A stretch of 64,000 bases of DNA from assembly GCA_002255985.1 (NCBI GenBank), contig NKIR01000009.1, forward strand, positions 1-64,000. The letters run 5' to 3'. Below the pieces are notes generated by a model that worked only from the letters and a program-made list of their open reading frames with translations, was not told the origin of the DNA and did not search any database. This DNA is from Sphingomonadaceae bacterium PASS1. GTDB lineage: Bacteria; Pseudomonadota; Alphaproteobacteria; Sphingomonadales; Sphingomonadaceae. Positions 43,338-49,494 of the stretch are shown here, one piece after another. Numbering within the stretch: position 1 is the stretch's first letter; each line of letters begins with the position of its first letter. A program made the position numbers and the translations under genes.

Positions 43338-44606
43338 CTATGCTGAACGTGTGAACCGCGCCACGAAAAATCCGTCGAGGCCACCCTGATCGGCAAGCAT
43401 TGGGGGCATCGTGCGGACATGGCCATGTGCATTGGCAACGACGCCCACTGGCAATTCTTCCGCGGTCGCCGCCAAGGTTGTATATTCCGGCTGCCGCGCA
43501 AGAAACGCCTCTGCCTGCGCCTCGCCCTCATGCGGTTCAAGTGAACACGTCGCGAAGACCAAGGTGCCACCGGGCTTCAGCCATTGCGCCGCACGGTCAA
43601 GCATGGCGCTTTGAATCGCCGCCAGATTGTTGATGGCTTTCAAATCAATGCGCTGCAGCACATCGGGATGGCGCCGCATCGTGCCCGTCGCACTGCATGG
43701 CGCATCCAGCAGAATGGCATCGAACAGTTGTGCCGGCTTCCAATCCATGACGTCCGCATTGACCCGCTCTGCATTCAATTGTGTGCGTTCCAGATTGGCC
43801 ATCAGCCGGTCCATGCGCCGGGCGCTGTTATCAAGCGCGGTCACGGTAAAGCCCGCAGCCGAAAGCTGCATCGTCTTGCCGCCGGGGGCAGCACATAAAT
43901 CGAGCGCCCTTTTGCCCTGCCCGTTGCCCAGCAAGCGCGCCGGAAGGCTGGCGGCGAGATCCTGAACCCACCACGCGCCTTCGTCATAGCCATCCAATTC
44001 TTCAATGGCGGTTCCGCGCGGCAAGCGGACATGACCGGGCATCAGGCTGACGCCGCCCAGTCGCTCTGCCCAGGCCTGCGTGGCTGACGCATCCCGCAAG
44101 GCGAGGTCAAGCGGCGGCGGTTCTGACAATGCGGCCTGTGCGCCTGCAATCATCTCGTCGTCCCATGTGGGATGCCAGCGCATCATCACTGCCTCTGGCA
44201 GCGACGGCAGATCGGGCAGCGTGGCTTCGGCGCGCAAGAGCGACCCCAACACGCCATGCACCAGCCGCCGTGGTCCGCCATCAACCAGCGGCAGCGCGGT
44301 CGCAATCGCGGCATGGGCGGGTGTGCCCAGCCGCAATATTTGCGCCAGCGCCAGCCGCAATACCATGCGTGCTTTGGCATCATCAGGCAGTGCCTGCTTG
44401 GTTTTGCTGTCAATCAATTGGTCCAGATCAACCGACCAACGCAGCGTTTCTTGCGCAATCGCGATGGCGAGCGCGCGGTCCGGCGGCGACAGCCCTTTGG
44501 TCGCATTTGCCGTCGCCTGATCCATCGGTGTGCCCATGCGCATGACGGTATCAAGCAGCCGCAATGCGGCTCGGCGGGTCGGAAGTCCGGAAATTTCTTC
44601 AGTCAT
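43338..44606 (-). CDS. RsmB/NOP-family RNA (cytosine-5) methyltransferase
   Basis: The 422-residue enzyme has an N-terminal NusB-like helical domain (RRAALRLLDTVMRMGTPMDQA and following) and a C-terminal SAM methyltransferase. SAM binding is at ALDLCAAPGGKTMQLSAAG. The two catalytic cysteines are present: Cys304 in DAPCSATGTMRRHPD and Cys354 in ATCSLEPHEGE. This matches RsmB, which makes m5C967 in 16S rRNA, though other rRNA or tRNA targets are possible. The ATG at 44606 begins MTEEISGLPTRRAA; codons upstream are not conserved-looking. Confidence 0.9.
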   Translation of the reverse strand: MTEEISGLPTRRAALRLLDTVMRMGTPMDQATANATKGLSPPDRALAIAIAQETLRWSVDLDQLIDSKTKQALPDDAKARMVLRLALAQILRLGTPAHAAIATALPLVDGGPRRLVHGVLGSLLRAEATLPDLPSLPEAVMMRWHPTWDDEMIAGAQAALSEPPPLDLALRDASATQAWAERLGGVSLMPGHVRLPRGTAIEELDGYDEGAWWVQDLAASLPARLLGNGQGKRALDLCAAPGGKTMQLSAAGFTVTALDNSARRMDRLMANLERTQLNAERVNADVMDWKPAQLFDAILLDAPCSATGTMRRHPDVLQRIDLKAINNLAAIQSAMLDRAAQWLKPGGTLVFATCSLEPHEGEAQAEAFLARQPEYTTLAATAEELPVGVVANAHGHVRTMPPMLADQGGLDGFFVARFTRSA

Positions 44607-44743
44607 GCAAAGCGCACTAGGCGTCTGCGCCAAACAAGGGAAGAGCGGTTCGATGCCACGCCATTGCCAAGCTTCACCTTGCAAACCGGCCTATCTGCAC
44701 CGATGTAGGGAATAACCGAACGCGCTTTCGAAGGAGAAGCTTC

Positions 44744-44908
44744 ATGGGCACGCGCCCTTCACATGTCAAAGCACCCGATTATTTGTCGAAAAGCCCGCCT
44801 GTGCCGGCACCGAAAGCGGTCGATCGCGAACCTGAGCCAGATGCGGAAAGACTAGACCCTGTGCGCTATGGCGATTGGGAATTGAAGGGCGTGGCGGTCG
44901 ATTTTTAA
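44744..44908 (+). CDS. Succinate dehydrogenase assembly factor 4 family protein (DUF1674)
   Basis: This 54-codon gene has a perfect ribosome site (AAGGAG at 44731-44736, 7 bases before the ATG). The product ends in the DUF1674/SdhAF4 signature LDPVRYGDWELKGVAVDF (residues 37-54). The N-terminal half is Pro-rich and unstructured (KSPPVPAPKAVDREPEP). SdhAF4 binds flavinylated SdhA and promotes assembly of succinate dehydrogenase. No sdh genes lie in this window. Divergent from the RsmB-like gene, it is a standalone unit. Confidence 0.85.
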   Translation: MGTRPSHVKAPDYLSKSPPVPAPKAVDREPEPDAERLDPVRYGDWELKGVAVDF

Positions 44909-44930
44909 CGCACTTGCTGGCCAAAATTTG

Positions 44931-44967
44931 TGCAGTTGCGAAGTAACTTGTTTTCTGCATTTTTTTT
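44931..44967 (+). terminator. Possible intrinsic terminator after the SdhAF4 gene
   Basis: A short stem TGCAG (44931-44935) / CTGCA (44955-44959), with an inner AGTT/AACT pairing, is followed at once by eight T residues (44960-44967). The stem is weak, but the T tract is unusual for this DNA. Confidence 0.35.
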
Positions 44968-44984
44968 AGGCAGATACTGAAGCA

Positions 44985-46415
44985 ATGGCATCAAAACCGC
45001 CCTGCTTCGACGAAATGCTGAAAGAGGATGGTTCGCCACGCGCCGCGTACGCAGCCTATCATAAATGGTTTGCCGAGCAGGACAGCACCCATCTGAAACA
45101 AAAGGCGCGCGATGCGGAAGAGTTCTTTCGCCGCACCGGTATTACCTTTGCCGTCTATGGCGAGGATGAAGCCGAAGAACGCCTGATACCCTTTGATATC
45201 ATCCCGCGTATCGTCACCTCACGCGAATGGACAAAATTATCGCGCGGCATTGAACAACGCGTGCGCGCGATCAACGCATTCCTTCAAGATATTTACCACC
45301 GCCAAGAAATCGTACGCGCTGGCCGCTTGCCTGTTGAGCTTCTGGAAAAGAATGACGCCTTTGTAAGCCAGATGATTGGCTTCACGCCGCCTGGCGGTGT
45401 CTACACGCATATTGTCGGCATTGATCTTGTCCGCACCGGGCCTGATGATTTTGTCGTGCTTGAGGATAATGCACGCACGCCGTCGGGCGTTTCATACATG
45501 CTCGAAAATCGCGAAACGATGATGAACATGTTCCCCGAACTGTTCAGCAATATTCGCGTCCGCAACGTTAGCGATTACCCCAAAAACTTGCGTGCATCGT
45601 TAAGCCGCGTGGCACCACCGGCGTGCAAGGGCGATCCCGTGGTCGCAGTCCTAACGCCCGGCATCCACAATAGCGCCTATTTCGAGCATGCATTTCTTGC
45701 GGACCAAATGGGCGCGGAACTTGTCGAAGGGCATGACATACGGATTGTCGACGGCAGGGTCGCGATGCGCACCACGCAGGGCTATCAGCCCATTGACGTC
45801 CTCTACCGCCGCCTCGACGATGATTATCTAGACCCGCTGATTTTCCGGTCCGATTCCGTGCTCGGCATTCCCGGCATCTTCGACCTGTATCGCGCAGGGC
45901 GGATCACGATCGCGAACGCACCGGGCACAGGCATTGCCGACGACAAGGCCATTTACAGCTACATGCCCGACATCGTCGAATTCTATACGGGCGAAAAGCC
46001 GATCCTCAAGAACGTTGATACGTGGCGCTGTTCGGAAAAAGACTCGTTGGCCTATGTCCTCGACCATTTACCGGAACTCGTCGTCAAGGAAGTGCATGGT
46101 TCAGGCGGCTACGGAATGCTGGTCGGTCCAGCCGCGAGCAAGCGCGAACTGGCGGACTTCCGCGCCAAGCTTATCGCCAAACCGGCAAACTACATCGCAC
46201 AGCCTACGTTGGCGTTATCCACCATCCCCGTCTTCGCCAACAGCGGCCTTGCCCCGCGCCATGTTGACTTGCGCCCTTTCGTGCTCGTTTCACCTGACAA
46301 GATCGACATCACCCCAGGCGGCCTTACGCGGGTTGCATTGCGCAAGGGATCGCTGGTCGTCAATTCAAGCCAAGGTGGCGGCACCAAAGACAGCTGGGTC
46401 ATTGATGATGATTGA
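44985..46415 (+). CDS. Circularly permuted ATP-grasp type 2 ligase
   Basis: The 476-residue protein belongs to the circularly permuted ATP-grasp family, predicted to join a carboxylate to an amine with ATP. Motifs are FVVLEDNARTPSGVSYMLENR-type block (156-176, metal and nucleotide residues Glu160, Asn162, Arg164), DVLYRRLDDDYLDPL (271-285), the glycine-rich loop VKEVHGSGGYGMLVG (367-381), RHVDLRPF (425-432) and SQGGGTKDSWV (462-472). It is the first of four genes with an alpha-E protein, a transglutaminase and an Anbu peptidase. This set was predicted by comparative genomics to synthesise or attach peptides; the substrate is unknown. Confidence 0.9.
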   Translation: MASKPPCFDEMLKEDGSPRAAYAAYHKWFAEQDSTHLKQKARDAEEFFRRTGITFAVYGEDEAEERLIPFDIIPRIVTSREWTKLSRGIEQRVRAINAFLQDIYHRQEIVRAGRLPVELLEKNDAFVSQMIGFTPPGGVYTHIVGIDLVRTGPDDFVVLEDNARTPSGVSYMLENRETMMNMFPELFSNIRVRNVSDYPKNLRASLSRVAPPACKGDPVVAVLTPGIHNSAYFEHAFLADQMGAELVEGHDIRIVDGRVAMRTTQGYQPIDVLYRRLDDDYLDPLIFRSDSVLGIPGIFDLYRAGRITIANAPGTGIADDKAIYSYMPDIVEFYTGEKPILKNVDTWRCSEKDSLAYVLDHLPELVVKEVHGSGGYGMLVGPAASKRELADFRAKLIAKPANYIAQPTLALSTIPVFANSGLAPRHVDLRPFVLVSPDKIDITPGGLTRVALRKGSLVVNSSQGGGTKDSWVIDDD

Positions 46416-46418
46416 TCC

Positions 46419-47360
46419 ATGCTAGGCAAAACCGCATCCGGCATATTCTGGCTTTTCCGCTACCTTGAGCGTGCGGAGAATATTGCACGGCTGATTGAAA
46501 CCGGCCACCGCTTTACGCTGACCCGCAACAGCGGGCGTCAGGACGAATGGCGCTCCATACTCGCCGCGCTTGGCATGGACGCTGCTTACCGCGCCACGCA
46601 TCAGGATTATAACGCGGCGCAGGTTGTGGACTATCTGCTCCGCGACAAGCGGAACGCGGGTAATTTACGCAACCTGATTGATAACGCGCGGCAAAATGCG
46701 CGAACAACGCGGACCGCCATTACCCGCGAATTGTGGGAGGCGGTCAATGAATGCTGGATCTGCGTCAATGATGCGCTGAAACGCCAAGTGCGCGAGGCGG
46801 ATTTGCCGGCGACAATCGACCTGATTGAACGGCAAACCGCGATGGTGCGTGGCGCGCTTGAAAACACAATGCTGCGCAATGACGGGTATAATTTCAGCCG
46901 CGTCGGCAATTTCATTGAACGCGCGGACAGCATGGCGCGGCTGCTTGACGTCAAATATTATGTGTTGCTGCCGTCGGTGTCTTTTGTTGGATCGTCGCTC
47001 GACAATATCCAGTGGGAAACAATCCTGCGCTCAACCTCAGCCTATAGTGCCTATCGCTGGCTGTACCCGGGACGGGCGAGTGCGCTGGGGATTGCAGAGT
47101 TTTTGATTTTGGACCGCCGGTTCCCGCGCAGCCTTGCCTTTTGTTATGGCAAATTGACTGACAATTTGCGGCACTTGGCGATGTCCTACGGCGCACAATC
47201 CGAAAGCCTTGCGGAGGCCGAACGTATTTACGCGAGCTTTGCGTCGCGAACTGCGGCGTCCATTCTGGAAGACGGGCTGCACGAATTCCTCATCGAGTTC
47301 CTTAGCCAGAACCGGAACCTCGCAAGCTTGGTCGAGCAAGAATATAGGTTCAACAGCTGA
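46419..47360 (+). CDS. Alpha-E domain protein
   Basis: The 313-residue, largely alpha-helical protein begins MLGKTASGIFWLFRYLERAENIARLIE, the signature of the alpha-E family, and includes a conserved NFIERADSMARLLDVKYY segment at about 166-183. The family accompanies circularly permuted ATP-grasp enzymes, and sometimes is fused to them, so a structural or substrate-holding role is inferred; no catalytic residues can be assigned. It starts 3 bases after the ATP-grasp stop, and its stop overlaps the transglutaminase ATG (TGATG), which points to fixed stoichiometry. Confidence 0.9.
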   Translation: MLGKTASGIFWLFRYLERAENIARLIETGHRFTLTRNSGRQDEWRSILAALGMDAAYRATHQDYNAAQVVDYLLRDKRNAGNLRNLIDNARQNARTTRTAITRELWEAVNECWICVNDALKRQVREADLPATIDLIERQTAMVRGALENTMLRNDGYNFSRVGNFIERADSMARLLDVKYYVLLPSVSFVGSSLDNIQWETILRSTSAYSAYRWLYPGRASALGIAEFLILDRRFPRSLAFCYGKLTDNLRHLAMSYGAQSESLAEAERIYASFASRTAASILEDGLHEFLIEFLSQNRNLASLVEQEYRFNS

Positions 47361-48160
47361 TGCTTCTGTCGATCCATCACACCACCGAATATCAATTCGA
47401 CCAACCCGTCCGCTACGCGTTGCAACGCCTCATGCTGCGTCCCAAGAGCGGTGCGGGACAAACAATTCTCGATTGGCAACTGCACGTGGACGGCGGCACG
47501 ATTGAGGCCGAGCATGATGATCCGCACAATAACCACATCACGCTGATTTCGGTTGAAGAAGGCCGAACCGCGATTACGATCAGCTGTCATGGTCAGGTCG
47601 AAACCGCCGACAATCACGGCATATTGGGCCGGCATCGCAGCCATGTTCCTTTATGGGCGTACAGCCGCCCCACCCGCTTAACCACATCGGGTCGCGGGGT
47701 TCAGAAATTGTTGGCGGGAATTGACCGGTCCGCGCCTGACAAAATTGCGATGCTGCATGAACTGTCGGCACATATTCTGTCGACCGTCGAATATCGCACA
47801 GGTGCAACGGGCGTTGATACCAATGCCGAGCAAGCCATTACAGCAGGTGCAGGGGTATGTCAGGACCATGCCCATATCTTCATCGCTGCATGCCGTTCGA
47901 TCGGCATTCCGGCGCGCTATGTCTCGGGCTATTTAATGATGGATGGCCATATAGAACAGACCGCCAGCCATGCCTGGGCAGAAGCCCATCTGGATGGCCT
48001 TGCCTGGGTTGGTTTTGATATCTCCAACGGGATCAGCCCCGATGGCCGTTATGTTCGGGTCGCTACCGGCTTTGATTATCGGGACGCCGCCCCCATTTCC
48101 GGCATGTCATTCGGCGCACGCGACAAGAGTATGGTTGTATCCTTGCGTGTCGAACAGTAG
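47360..48160 (+). CDS. Transglutaminase-like cysteine peptidase family protein
   Basis: The 266-residue protein has an N-terminal beta domain (LSIHHTTEYQFDQPVRYALQRLMLRP) and a papain-like transglutaminase core. The catalytic triad is Cys167 (GAGVCQDHAH), His204 (ASHAWAEAHL) and Asp220 (WVGFDISNG). Bacterial members may act as peptidases or amide transferases. No signal peptide is present, so it acts in the cytoplasm. It is coupled to the alpha-E gene and is followed after 36 bases by the Anbu gene. Confidence 0.92.
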   Translation: MLLSIHHTTEYQFDQPVRYALQRLMLRPKSGAGQTILDWQLHVDGGTIEAEHDDPHNNHITLISVEEGRTAITISCHGQVETADNHGILGRHRSHVPLWAYSRPTRLTTSGRGVQKLLAGIDRSAPDKIAMLHELSAHILSTVEYRTGATGVDTNAEQAITAGAGVCQDHAHIFIAACRSIGIPARYVSGYLMMDGHIEQTASHAWAEAHLDGLAWVGFDISNGISPDGRYVRVATGFDYRDAAPISGMSFGARDKSMVVSLRVEQ

Positions 48161-48196
48161 GAATCTCGAAACAAGGCGGGGGCCAGCGGTACAAGA

Positions 48197-48943
48197 ATGA
48201 CATATTGCGTGGGAATGTTACTCGACAAGGGCATGGCGTTCATGTCCGATACGCGCACAAATTCCGGCGTCGACAATATCTCGACGTTCCGCAAAATGTT
48301 TAGCTGGTCGGTTCCCGGTGAGCGGCACATCACCATGATGACGGCGGGCAACTTGGCCACGACGCAGGCGTTGATCAGCCAACTCGAAGAACGCACCAAA
48401 GCCCCAAATGACCGCAAGCCATCCATCTTGGCTGCACCCACAATGTTTCAGGTGGCGAACATCGTCGGCGCGACATTGCGTGACACGATATCGGCGCGGG
48501 CGCTGACTGGCCCCTCTGCCGCCAGCCCCGTCCCCAATTTCAACGCAAGCGTCATTTTGGGTGGGCAGATCAAGGGCATGGAGCCACGGCTTTACCTAAT
48601 CTATCCCGAAGGCAATTTCATTGAGGCCAGCCCCGAAACGCCGTTTTTCCAGATTGGCGAAACCAAATATGGTCGGCCGATTTTGGTGCGCGGTTTTGAA
48701 TCGCATATGTCCTTTGCCGACATCACCAAATTGCTAATGGTGTCGTTCGATTCTACGCTGAAGGCCAATCTGTCGGTCGGCATGCCGTTGGATTTGATGC
48801 TTTACAAGAATGACGAATTTCAGGCATTCCACGAACGCCGCATCACATCAGATGACCCCTATTTCGAGAATATATCCGACAGCTGGAGCACAGCTCTACG
48901 CAATGCGTTCCATTCGCTGCCGGATTATGAATTGGGCGAATAA
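48197..48943 (+). CDS. Anbu-type proteasome-like peptidase
   Basis: The 248-residue Ntn-hydrolase is of the Anbu (bacterial proteasome-like, HslV-related) family. The second residue is the candidate nucleophilic Thr, exposed when Met is removed (MTYCVG), with no propeptide. With the Thr counted as residue 1, Asp17 (FMSDTRTNSG) and Lys32 (STFRKMF) sit at or next to the places of the proteasome Asp17 and Lys33. GRPILVRGF and LGGQIKG match the core fold. Known Anbu structures form open helical or ring assemblies without a dedicated unfoldase; no ATPase is near. It completes the ATP-grasp/alpha-E/transglutaminase set. Confidence 0.9.
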   Translation: MTYCVGMLLDKGMAFMSDTRTNSGVDNISTFRKMFSWSVPGERHITMMTAGNLATTQALISQLEERTKAPNDRKPSILAAPTMFQVANIVGATLRDTISARALTGPSAASPVPNFNASVILGGQIKGMEPRLYLIYPEGNFIEASPETPFFQIGETKYGRPILVRGFESHMSFADITKLLMVSFDSTLKANLSVGMPLDLMLYKNDEFQAFHERRITSDDPYFENISDSWSTALRNAFHSLPDYELGE

Positions 48944-48994
48944 ACCGTTTTCGGTTCGACCGAAGGCGCGAGGCTAGGACAGTACACGCCCAAA

Positions 48995-49077
48995 CCGTCA
49001 CCCTGAACTTGTTTCAGGGTCTTACTTAATCGGGGTTCAAAGTAAGATGCTGAAACAAGTTCAGCATGACAAGACGG
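48995..49077. repeat. Nested palindromic repeat (REP-like, sphingomonad type)
   Basis: The 83-base element has outer arms CCGTC/GACGG, an inner perfect 15-base inverted pair CTGAACTTGTTTCAG / CTGAAACAAGTTCAG, a middle pair CTTACTT/AAGTAAG, and each half is itself a small hairpin (ACCCTGAA/TTCAGGGT and ATGCTGAA/TTCAGCAT). Palindromes of the CTGAACTTGTTTCAG type are, to my knowledge, scattered through many sphingomonad genomes. It lies between the Anbu gene and the convergent thioesterase gene and can also stop transcription. Confidence 0.75.
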
Positions 49078-49101
49078 TGGCGCTTTCGGCGATCGCTTTT
49101 A

Positions 49102-49494
49102 TCACCCCATAAACGGCGCCGACACCTCGGGCCGCACGCGTACCAATCGCCCGGTCGCTTTATCGATCATCGCCCAAGTCGTATTTGCCCGCACAATGAC
49201 CTTGCCCGCGGCATCAACAAAATCCACCCGCCGGTCAAATTGCGCACCCTTTGGTTCGCTTTCAATCCAAGTATTGGCGGTAACGCTTTCGCCTGCAGCA
49301 ATATTCCCGCGGTAGTCAATTTCGTGCCGGGTCACGACCCAGAAATAGGCCGCGATATGTTCAGGCGCGGCAACCGCCTGCCAGTGCGATGTCGCCATGT
49401 CCTGAATCCACCGCACCCAGACGGCGTTGTTAACGTGGCCGAGCTCGTCAATGTCATCTGGTTGCGCGGTAAATGTGCGCGTAAATGGGGTCAC
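49102..49494 (-). CDS. Acyl-CoA thioesterase (4-hydroxybenzoyl-CoA thioesterase/YbgC-like)
   Basis: The 130-residue hotdog-fold protein has the family motif DIDELGHVNNAVWVRWIQD (about residues 14-32), with the catalytic Asp region, and later YRGNIAAGESVTANTWI. It hydrolyses acyl-CoA or aromatic-CoA thioesters; the substrate is undetermined. Its ATG overlaps the stop of the oligopeptidase B gene, so the two share a transcript. Confidence 0.88.
   Translation of the reverse strand: MTPFTRTFTAQPDDIDELGHVNNAVWVRWIQDMATSHWQAVAAPEHIAAYFWVVTRHEIDYRGNIAAGESVTANTWIESEPKGAQFDRRVDFVDAAGKVIVRANTTWAMIDKATGRLVRVRPEVSAPFMG

Follow-up and report, generated by a model that had tools for sequence, protein, structure and literature searches.

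Anbu, a relative of the proteasome found in bacteria, is encoded in a widespread operon. In the window analysed here (the first 64,000 nucleotides of contig NKIR01000009.1 of Sphingomonadaceae bacterium PASS1), four consecutive forward-strand genes at 44985-48943 are almost certainly a complete copy of the published Anbu operon, with the same four families in the same order. A comparison with relatives points to an operon whose core would be the ATP-grasp ligase and the Alpha-E protein, and in which the transglutaminase (TGase) reaction would be shared and could be supplied in trans by a paralogous cluster with a fused ligase/Alpha-E gene; in another genus of the window's family (here g2) the local TGase would be a maintained pseudo-enzyme, perhaps a scaffold for the ligase. 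This whole proposal is tentative, possible although somewhat short of probable. The operon and the idea of tagging are known already; what is added here is the duplication within Alpha-E, the constant core, and the association between TGase loss and the fused cluster.

The first gene encodes a circularly permuted type-2 ATP-grasp ligase (44985-46415, + strand, 476 amino acids) with a full-length match to PF14403 (CP_ATPgrasp_2; profile 1-374 of 374, E = 2e-161), its solved relative by sequence being Protein Data Bank (PDB) entry 3n6x (E = 1e-184). After a gap of 3 bases comes the Alpha-E protein (46419-47360, +, 313 amino acids; PF04168, profile 1-293 of 294, E = 2e-83), followed with a 1-base overlap by the TGase-like protein (47360-48160, +, 266 amino acids), which matches PF08379 (Bact_transglu_N, 3e-21) and PF01841 (Transglut_core, 5e-24) and, over part of its length, PDB 3isr (E = 2e-17, sequence search). 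A gap of 36 bases leads to Anbu, a proteasome-like N-terminal Thr hydrolase (48197-48943, +, 248 amino acids) that matches PF00227 (Proteasome, 4e-8) and five distinct solved Anbu chain sequences (E = 2e-87 to 9e-62). A Cys-His-Asp triad is the hallmark of the transglutaminase-like superfamily, and in the TGase of the window it consists of Cys167, His204 and Asp220. The window Anbu begins MT, with the Thr directly after the Met, and its catalytic set is Thr1/Asp17/Lys32 (T2, D18 and K33 with the Met counted), the set named for Anbu as Thr1, Asp17 and Lys32(33) in PMC6376114; an open split-ring or lock-washer assembly is reported for Anbu homologues. These Anbu and TGase residues, together with the ligase loop K368-Y376, are all among the columns that are at least 98.5% identical in alignments of the window with 80 Anbu, 74 TGase and 67 ligase relatives. 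The initial annotation of this DNA had thus read the active residues correctly as intact, its four same-strand genes, spaced by 3 and 36 bases and by one overlap, agree exactly with the coordinates of the open reading frames (ORFs), and the gene identities and the tie to the amidoligase literature are likewise correct. It had also called the pathway undescribed, which holds for the chemistry but not for the operon, since the four-gene arrangement is described in PMC5666114 and PMC6376114 (which cite Valas and Bourne 2008 and Iyer et al. 2009), where hypotheses of peptide tagging or peptide synthesis, as yet unproven, are already in print.

Of the loci found by Anbu (at least 581), the 80 best named ones were compared. 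The closest named Anbu, 92% identical, is from a metagenome-assembled Sphingopyxis genome, and the host accordingly appears to be Sphingopyxis. All four genes stand in the same order at 73 of the 80 loci, more than chance would give; four more are truncated at contig ends, and the set is incomplete in L118, L122 and L126. Of 147 sampled genomes of the order, 57 have Alpha-E and the same 57 have the ATP-grasp protein; 56 of them also have the TGase N domain. Anbu accompanies this trio in 45 genomes, the ligase and Alpha-E occur without Anbu in 12, and an Anbu-like match without the trio is seen in six, four of these matches being divergent and one partial. Because the ligase and Alpha-E are found in the same 57 genomes, and share a single open frame in the fused cluster, their sequences suggest that they are the constant core of the operon. 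The pathway first proposed for the window, which would make a product and then trim it, could still operate, but an obligate four-step chain is unsupported across relatives, because some combine the ligase and Alpha-E with a TGase lacking its Cys, with no TGase in cis, or with no Anbu. In the window's genus Alpha-E is found in 15 of 45 genomes, mostly larger ones (median 3.1 versus 2.4 Mb, p = 4e-5, in the 35 genomes at least 95% complete), and the system is therefore accessory there; the size difference suggests a loss of Alpha-E in streamlined species.

As judged from its sequence, the Alpha-E protein of the window contains one helical unit twice, through an internal duplication. The two halves (residues 1-150 and 151-313) align as profiles in hhalign with a score of 97.1, compared with at most 20.4 in 200 column shuffles and 15.2 for a reversed control; a cyclic-shift control (46.8-97.2) is uninformative, since long stretches stay contiguous in a local alignment. 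Each half has an ER motif (E17-R18 and E167-R168) and a conserved Trp (W44 and W199). A confident AlphaFold2 model built from 47 sequences is all-helical, with a predicted local distance difference test score of 88.6 and a predicted template modelling score of 0.88. A PDB sequence search with Alpha-E gave no credible match (best E = 0.43), and a Foldseek search of the PDB with the model gave 216 matches at E of 10 or less and none at 0.001, a result that does not prove a new fold because helical bundles are hard for Foldseek. A limited literature search found no report of the duplication in Alpha-E or of Cys-less TGases in Anbu operons.

The fused cluster, for which 'type-2' is used here as a working name, has the ATP-grasp and Alpha-E parts in one open frame, together with a small and a large TGase; a DUF2126 or large-TGase partner is one of its marks. 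In a sample of 289 genomes of the class, 64 Anbu-type loci were readable (G349 and G534 were unreadable and dropped), of which five have a TGase without the catalytic Cys and twelve have no TGase in cis. The type-2 cluster is present in 16 of the 17 genomes with a Cys-less or cis-absent TGase versus 7 of the 47 with the Cys (Fisher p = 7e-9, uncorrected for relatedness). Independent pairs were also drawn on an Alpha-E tree of 90 rows (the 64 class loci, 17 from g2 and 9 from the order sample); across the ten pairs that differ in TGase activity, the type-2 cluster differs in the same way in 7.5 on average, in the opposite way in 0.1 and not at all in 2.5 (median p = 0.016, range 0.008-0.070). 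The TGase adjoining the fused gene could be read in nine of the 16 genomes and keeps the Cys motif in all nine; in G471, G507 and G583 other Cys-bearing TGases were read, the TGases of G005, G378, G398 and G588 being the unread remainder. On the simplest reading of these sequences, the type-2 cluster can provide TGase activity in trans, and we infer that the cis and type-2 TGases would catalyze the same reaction on the same substrate. As for the window genome (96% complete), the fused cluster was not found in it; there is one Alpha-E match and no DUF2126 match, and the ligase and Alpha-E are separate ORFs. With one Alpha-E and no DUF2126, the window should rely on its own TGase.

Loss of the catalytic Cys is extensive in genus g2, of which 117 genomes were read (111 of the 117 Alpha-E-positive ones from a draw of the genus, and six from the draw of the order). 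The Cys is replaced in 106 of the 108 Anbu-less genomes with a readable TGase, by Pro (41), Ser (33), Ala (23), Gly (5), Val (2), Arg (1) or Thr (1), and the other two have a Cys within an altered motif. Six of the seven Anbu-bearing genomes read keep the Cys, G258 having Pro; the remaining genomes are one without a TGase match at the locus and one truncated by a contig end. His204 and Asp220 are still conserved in the g2 TGases, the GVCQDH motif has mostly become A-T-x-R-D-L/M, and Arg is common at position 168 (97 of 109 rows). For pairs restricted to 70-98.5% identity and a synonymous rate (dS) of 0.1-1.2, the ratio of nonsynonymous to synonymous rates (dN/dS) is about 0.24 in the Anbu-less set (325 pairs, 100 sequences) and 0.17 for Cys-bearing TGases (10 pairs of five sequences), and with a ratio of about 0.24 the Cys-less gene is still under purifying selection. 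A single Alpha-E match is found in seven g2 genomes, and these coincide exactly with the Anbu-bearing set once G258 is put aside; at least two matches occur in each of the remaining 110, and among those listed (33 of the 110 genomes) the second Alpha-E match always lies in an open frame of 826-1107 amino acids. In the Alpha-E tree G258 falls within the Cys-less clade, with G202, which keeps both Anbu and the Cys, as sister, and in the Anbu tree the two genomes pair (91/79, not starred) inside a 100/99 clade. These trees fit vertical inheritance in the lineage of G258, with the Cys lost before Anbu.

What the operon would do can be sketched from its families. That it makes or processes an amide-linked product, with a ligase and Alpha-E core, an exchangeable TGase, Anbu and a nitrogen-related setting, has in our judgment nearly an even chance of being right. 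The ATP-grasp protein would activate a carboxylate as an acyl phosphate and join it to an amine, giving an amide or peptide, with Alpha-E, the constant partner of the ligase, presenting the acceptor or shielding the intermediate. The TGase would then transfer or hydrolyze amide groups on the ligase product, an activity that would be exchangeable, with the TGase of the paralogous type-2 cluster able to provide it in trans, and Anbu would cleave the product or a tagged protein. A homologous ligase does release orthophosphate from ATP (PMC6376114). Nitrogen scavenging is the likeliest setting, as judged from transcription in other bacteria. PP_2685-PP_2688 of Pseudomonas putida are up under nitrogen limitation (PMC8050072, PMC7801951 and PMC3325844), the Anbu gene rising least in one data set, and in Burkholderia cenocepacia a cluster of DUF404/407, DUF403 and TGase genes is 6.0 to 9.4 log2 units lower in an ntrC mutant (PMC5491218). 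In such a nitrogen-limited setting, amide-linked peptides would be the means by which the system stores, recycles or releases nitrogen.

Several observations weigh against this proposal. The homologous ligase is not stimulated by Anbu, Gln or Glu, Anbu is inactive on three proteasome substrates, and the operon proteins form no stable complex (PMC6376114). The nitrogen setting is taken from other bacteria, expression unchanged under various environmental conditions is cited in PMC5666114, and a sigma-54/NtrC promoter upstream of the operon gained no support, the sigma-54 pattern showing no enrichment over 71 upstream regions (score of at least 16 in 21 regions versus 23.6 expected; score of 19 in one versus 0.6). 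The type-2 cluster coexists with a cis TGase that keeps its Cys at seven class loci and in four genomes of the order sample (G105, G110, G146 and G123), and redundancy would therefore permit the loss, not force it. The sole loss without a type-2 cluster is G396, which has no TGase in cis, although a gene for a large TGase with the Cys lies divergently to its operon. The p value that takes relatedness into account is modest, the type-2 presence calls come from a hand-typed list, G471 is counted twice (once with the Cys, at a second locus), and a common cause such as lifestyle or genome size could lie behind the association. As regards g2, the aligned position is still occupied by a Cys in L172 and L311, within an altered motif, and coding L172 as inactive in the pairs test was a matter of judgment. 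Moreover, dN/dS of Alpha-E is about 0.25 in the Cys-less clade versus 0.10, and the relaxation is therefore not limited to the TGase.

The alternative that survives best, though still rather unlikely, is a small-molecule pathway in which a free gamma- or isopeptide, such as a glutathione-like compound or a polyamine conjugate, would be made, then edited, and serve as a nitrogen store, and protein tagging would be absent. The nitrogen-linked expression in other bacteria would suit it, and 3n6x, the closest solved ligase, is annotated (by annotation alone) as a putative glutathionylspermidine synthase; against this stands the lack of stimulation by Gln or Glu. Moreover, none of the 28 widest neighbour clusters listed for the 80 loci and the window, clusters that include spurious frames, reached the 24 hand-marked non-sphingomonad loci, and no conserved adjoining transporter or amino-acid gene is seen outside sphingomonads in the clusters listed. 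Conserved outside neighbours, as judged from the clusters listed, were thus rejected as a clue to the substrate.

Less likely again is a simple analogue of the ubiquitin-proteasome system, as proposed in print (PMC5666114 and PMC6376114), in which proteins would be tagged with a peptide or an amino acid by the ligase, Alpha-E and TGase and then be degraded or untagged by Anbu. Such a scheme would account for the intact catalytic set of Anbu, itself homologous to the proteasome, and for the four genes staying together in 73 of 80 loci. Nonetheless, an unfoldase partner is absent and no peptidase activity was seen on the three substrates, according to the available text of the same papers, and in the order Anbu-like genes occur without the trio (six genomes) just as the ligase and Alpha-E occur without Anbu (twelve). 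The class loci that have Anbu but no cis TGase say little on this point, because eight of the nine have other TGases in the genome. As to the Cys-less TGases, it is very improbable that the TGase serves Anbu alone and loses its Cys once Anbu goes: the contrast in g2 (Cys lacking in nearly all Anbu-less genomes versus one of seven Anbu-bearing ones) invites that explanation, but Anbu absence goes with TGase loss in 2.6 of the ten independent pairs (p = 0.25) and so does not predict it, and of the 17 loci where no active TGase lies in cis, 11 retain Anbu, which together rule out Anbu loss as the main predictor; moreover, Anbu stands beside a Cys-less TGase in G344, G398 and G258, and the Cys is kept without Anbu in G314, G447, G465, G545, G573 and G591.

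Comparison with known systems places the window closest to the Anbu operon of Pseudomonas, Yersinia and other bacteria (PMC5666114 and PMC6376114), with which it shares the four families, their order and the catalytic residues of Anbu; it differs in host and sequence only, and no sigma-54 signature was found upstream in the alphaproteobacterial copies scanned. The type-2 cluster has the same ligase, Alpha-E and TGase families and keeps the TGase Cys motif where it was read, but in the copies surveyed the ligase and Alpha-E are fused, there is no Anbu beside them, and a large TGase is added; I35_5080-5083 of B. cenocepacia (DUF404/407, DUF403, TGase and large TGase; PMC5491218) resemble it. In the rlo operon of Pseudomonas aeruginosa (PMC12239564), a retropepsin-like protease (RloA), an inactive TGase (RloB) and an ATP-grasp protein (RloC) likewise bring together a ligase, a TGase-like protein and a peptidase, and there the non-catalytic TGase-like protein matters. 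However, its peptidase is unrelated, the TGase domain is membrane-bound, the protease is secreted, and Alpha-E is not named in the available text of that source. The same source describes the glutamylation of RpsF by RimK and RimB, which also pairs an ATP-grasp ligase with a peptidase that removes its product, although both families differ from those of the Anbu operon, and neither TGase nor Alpha-E is named in the text available.

If TGase activity is indeed interchangeable, both systems would share a product, which would narrow the search for the substrate and guide the choice of mutants. Single TGase mutants might then be silent in genomes with both systems, and the natural Cys-less and TGase-less variants would be a ready-made genetic dissection. 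The window copy, with no second Alpha-E in the genome searched, would be a clean background for deletions.

Other arrangements were seen among relatives. Eight class loci (L263-L270) have the ligase, Alpha-E and Anbu, but a TGase is missing from the place between the last two. Anbu-like proteins that form a separate, divergent class (about 105-153 bits versus at least 225 for the main class) occur in 16 genomes of the class sample (for example G340, G345, G356, G452, G479 and G574) and are never linked to Alpha-E. At L052:4170-5491 and L053:4150-5438, from two genera of one other family, a Gln-rich ORF of 97 amino acids adjoins an orphan divergent Anbu-like gene with an MTYC start, the product being 27% and 25% identical, respectively, to the window Anbu; the ligase, Alpha-E and TGase were not found in the stretches fetched, and the small ORF has no Pfam match. 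A gene for an arginyl/leucyl-tRNA-protein transferase (ATE_N/ATE_C) lies near the trio-less Anbu of G135 (L050:4002-5589) and near the Anbu-less trio in seven of eight g2 loci (L038-L041 and L043-L045); this proximity is probably shared ancestral synteny, a link to N-degrons being possible. Mobile carriage was rejected: 23 stretches of viral contigs matched the search pattern and none encoded a relative, and relatives are found in 105 of 72,556 plasmid records, 63 of the 105 being from Sinorhizobium. One phage record, a faecal 'Bacteriophage sp.' entry without annotation, has a relative of Alpha-E (31% identity, MT835738.1:16860-17687).

Finally, the flanks of the operon are described. Upstream lies a DUF1674 ORF (44744-44908, Pfam E = 5e-8), separated from the ligase by a gap of 76 bases (44909-44984, +) in which no convincing promoter was found; across 44600-49200, matches to promoter and terminator consensus sequences were no commoner than in shuffles. 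The best gapped palindrome of the upstream regions, TGCG-N5-CGCA (16 of 71), was rejected, as by eye it is coding sequence of the upstream gene. TTGGCAA/TTGCCAA occurs in 15 of the 71 regions, mostly near -50 and mostly at sphingomonad loci. Just 3' of Anbu, at 49003-49064, CTGAACTTGTTTCAG is present as an inverted pair, the only two copies in the window, and this pair may belong to a terminator or represent a repeat element.

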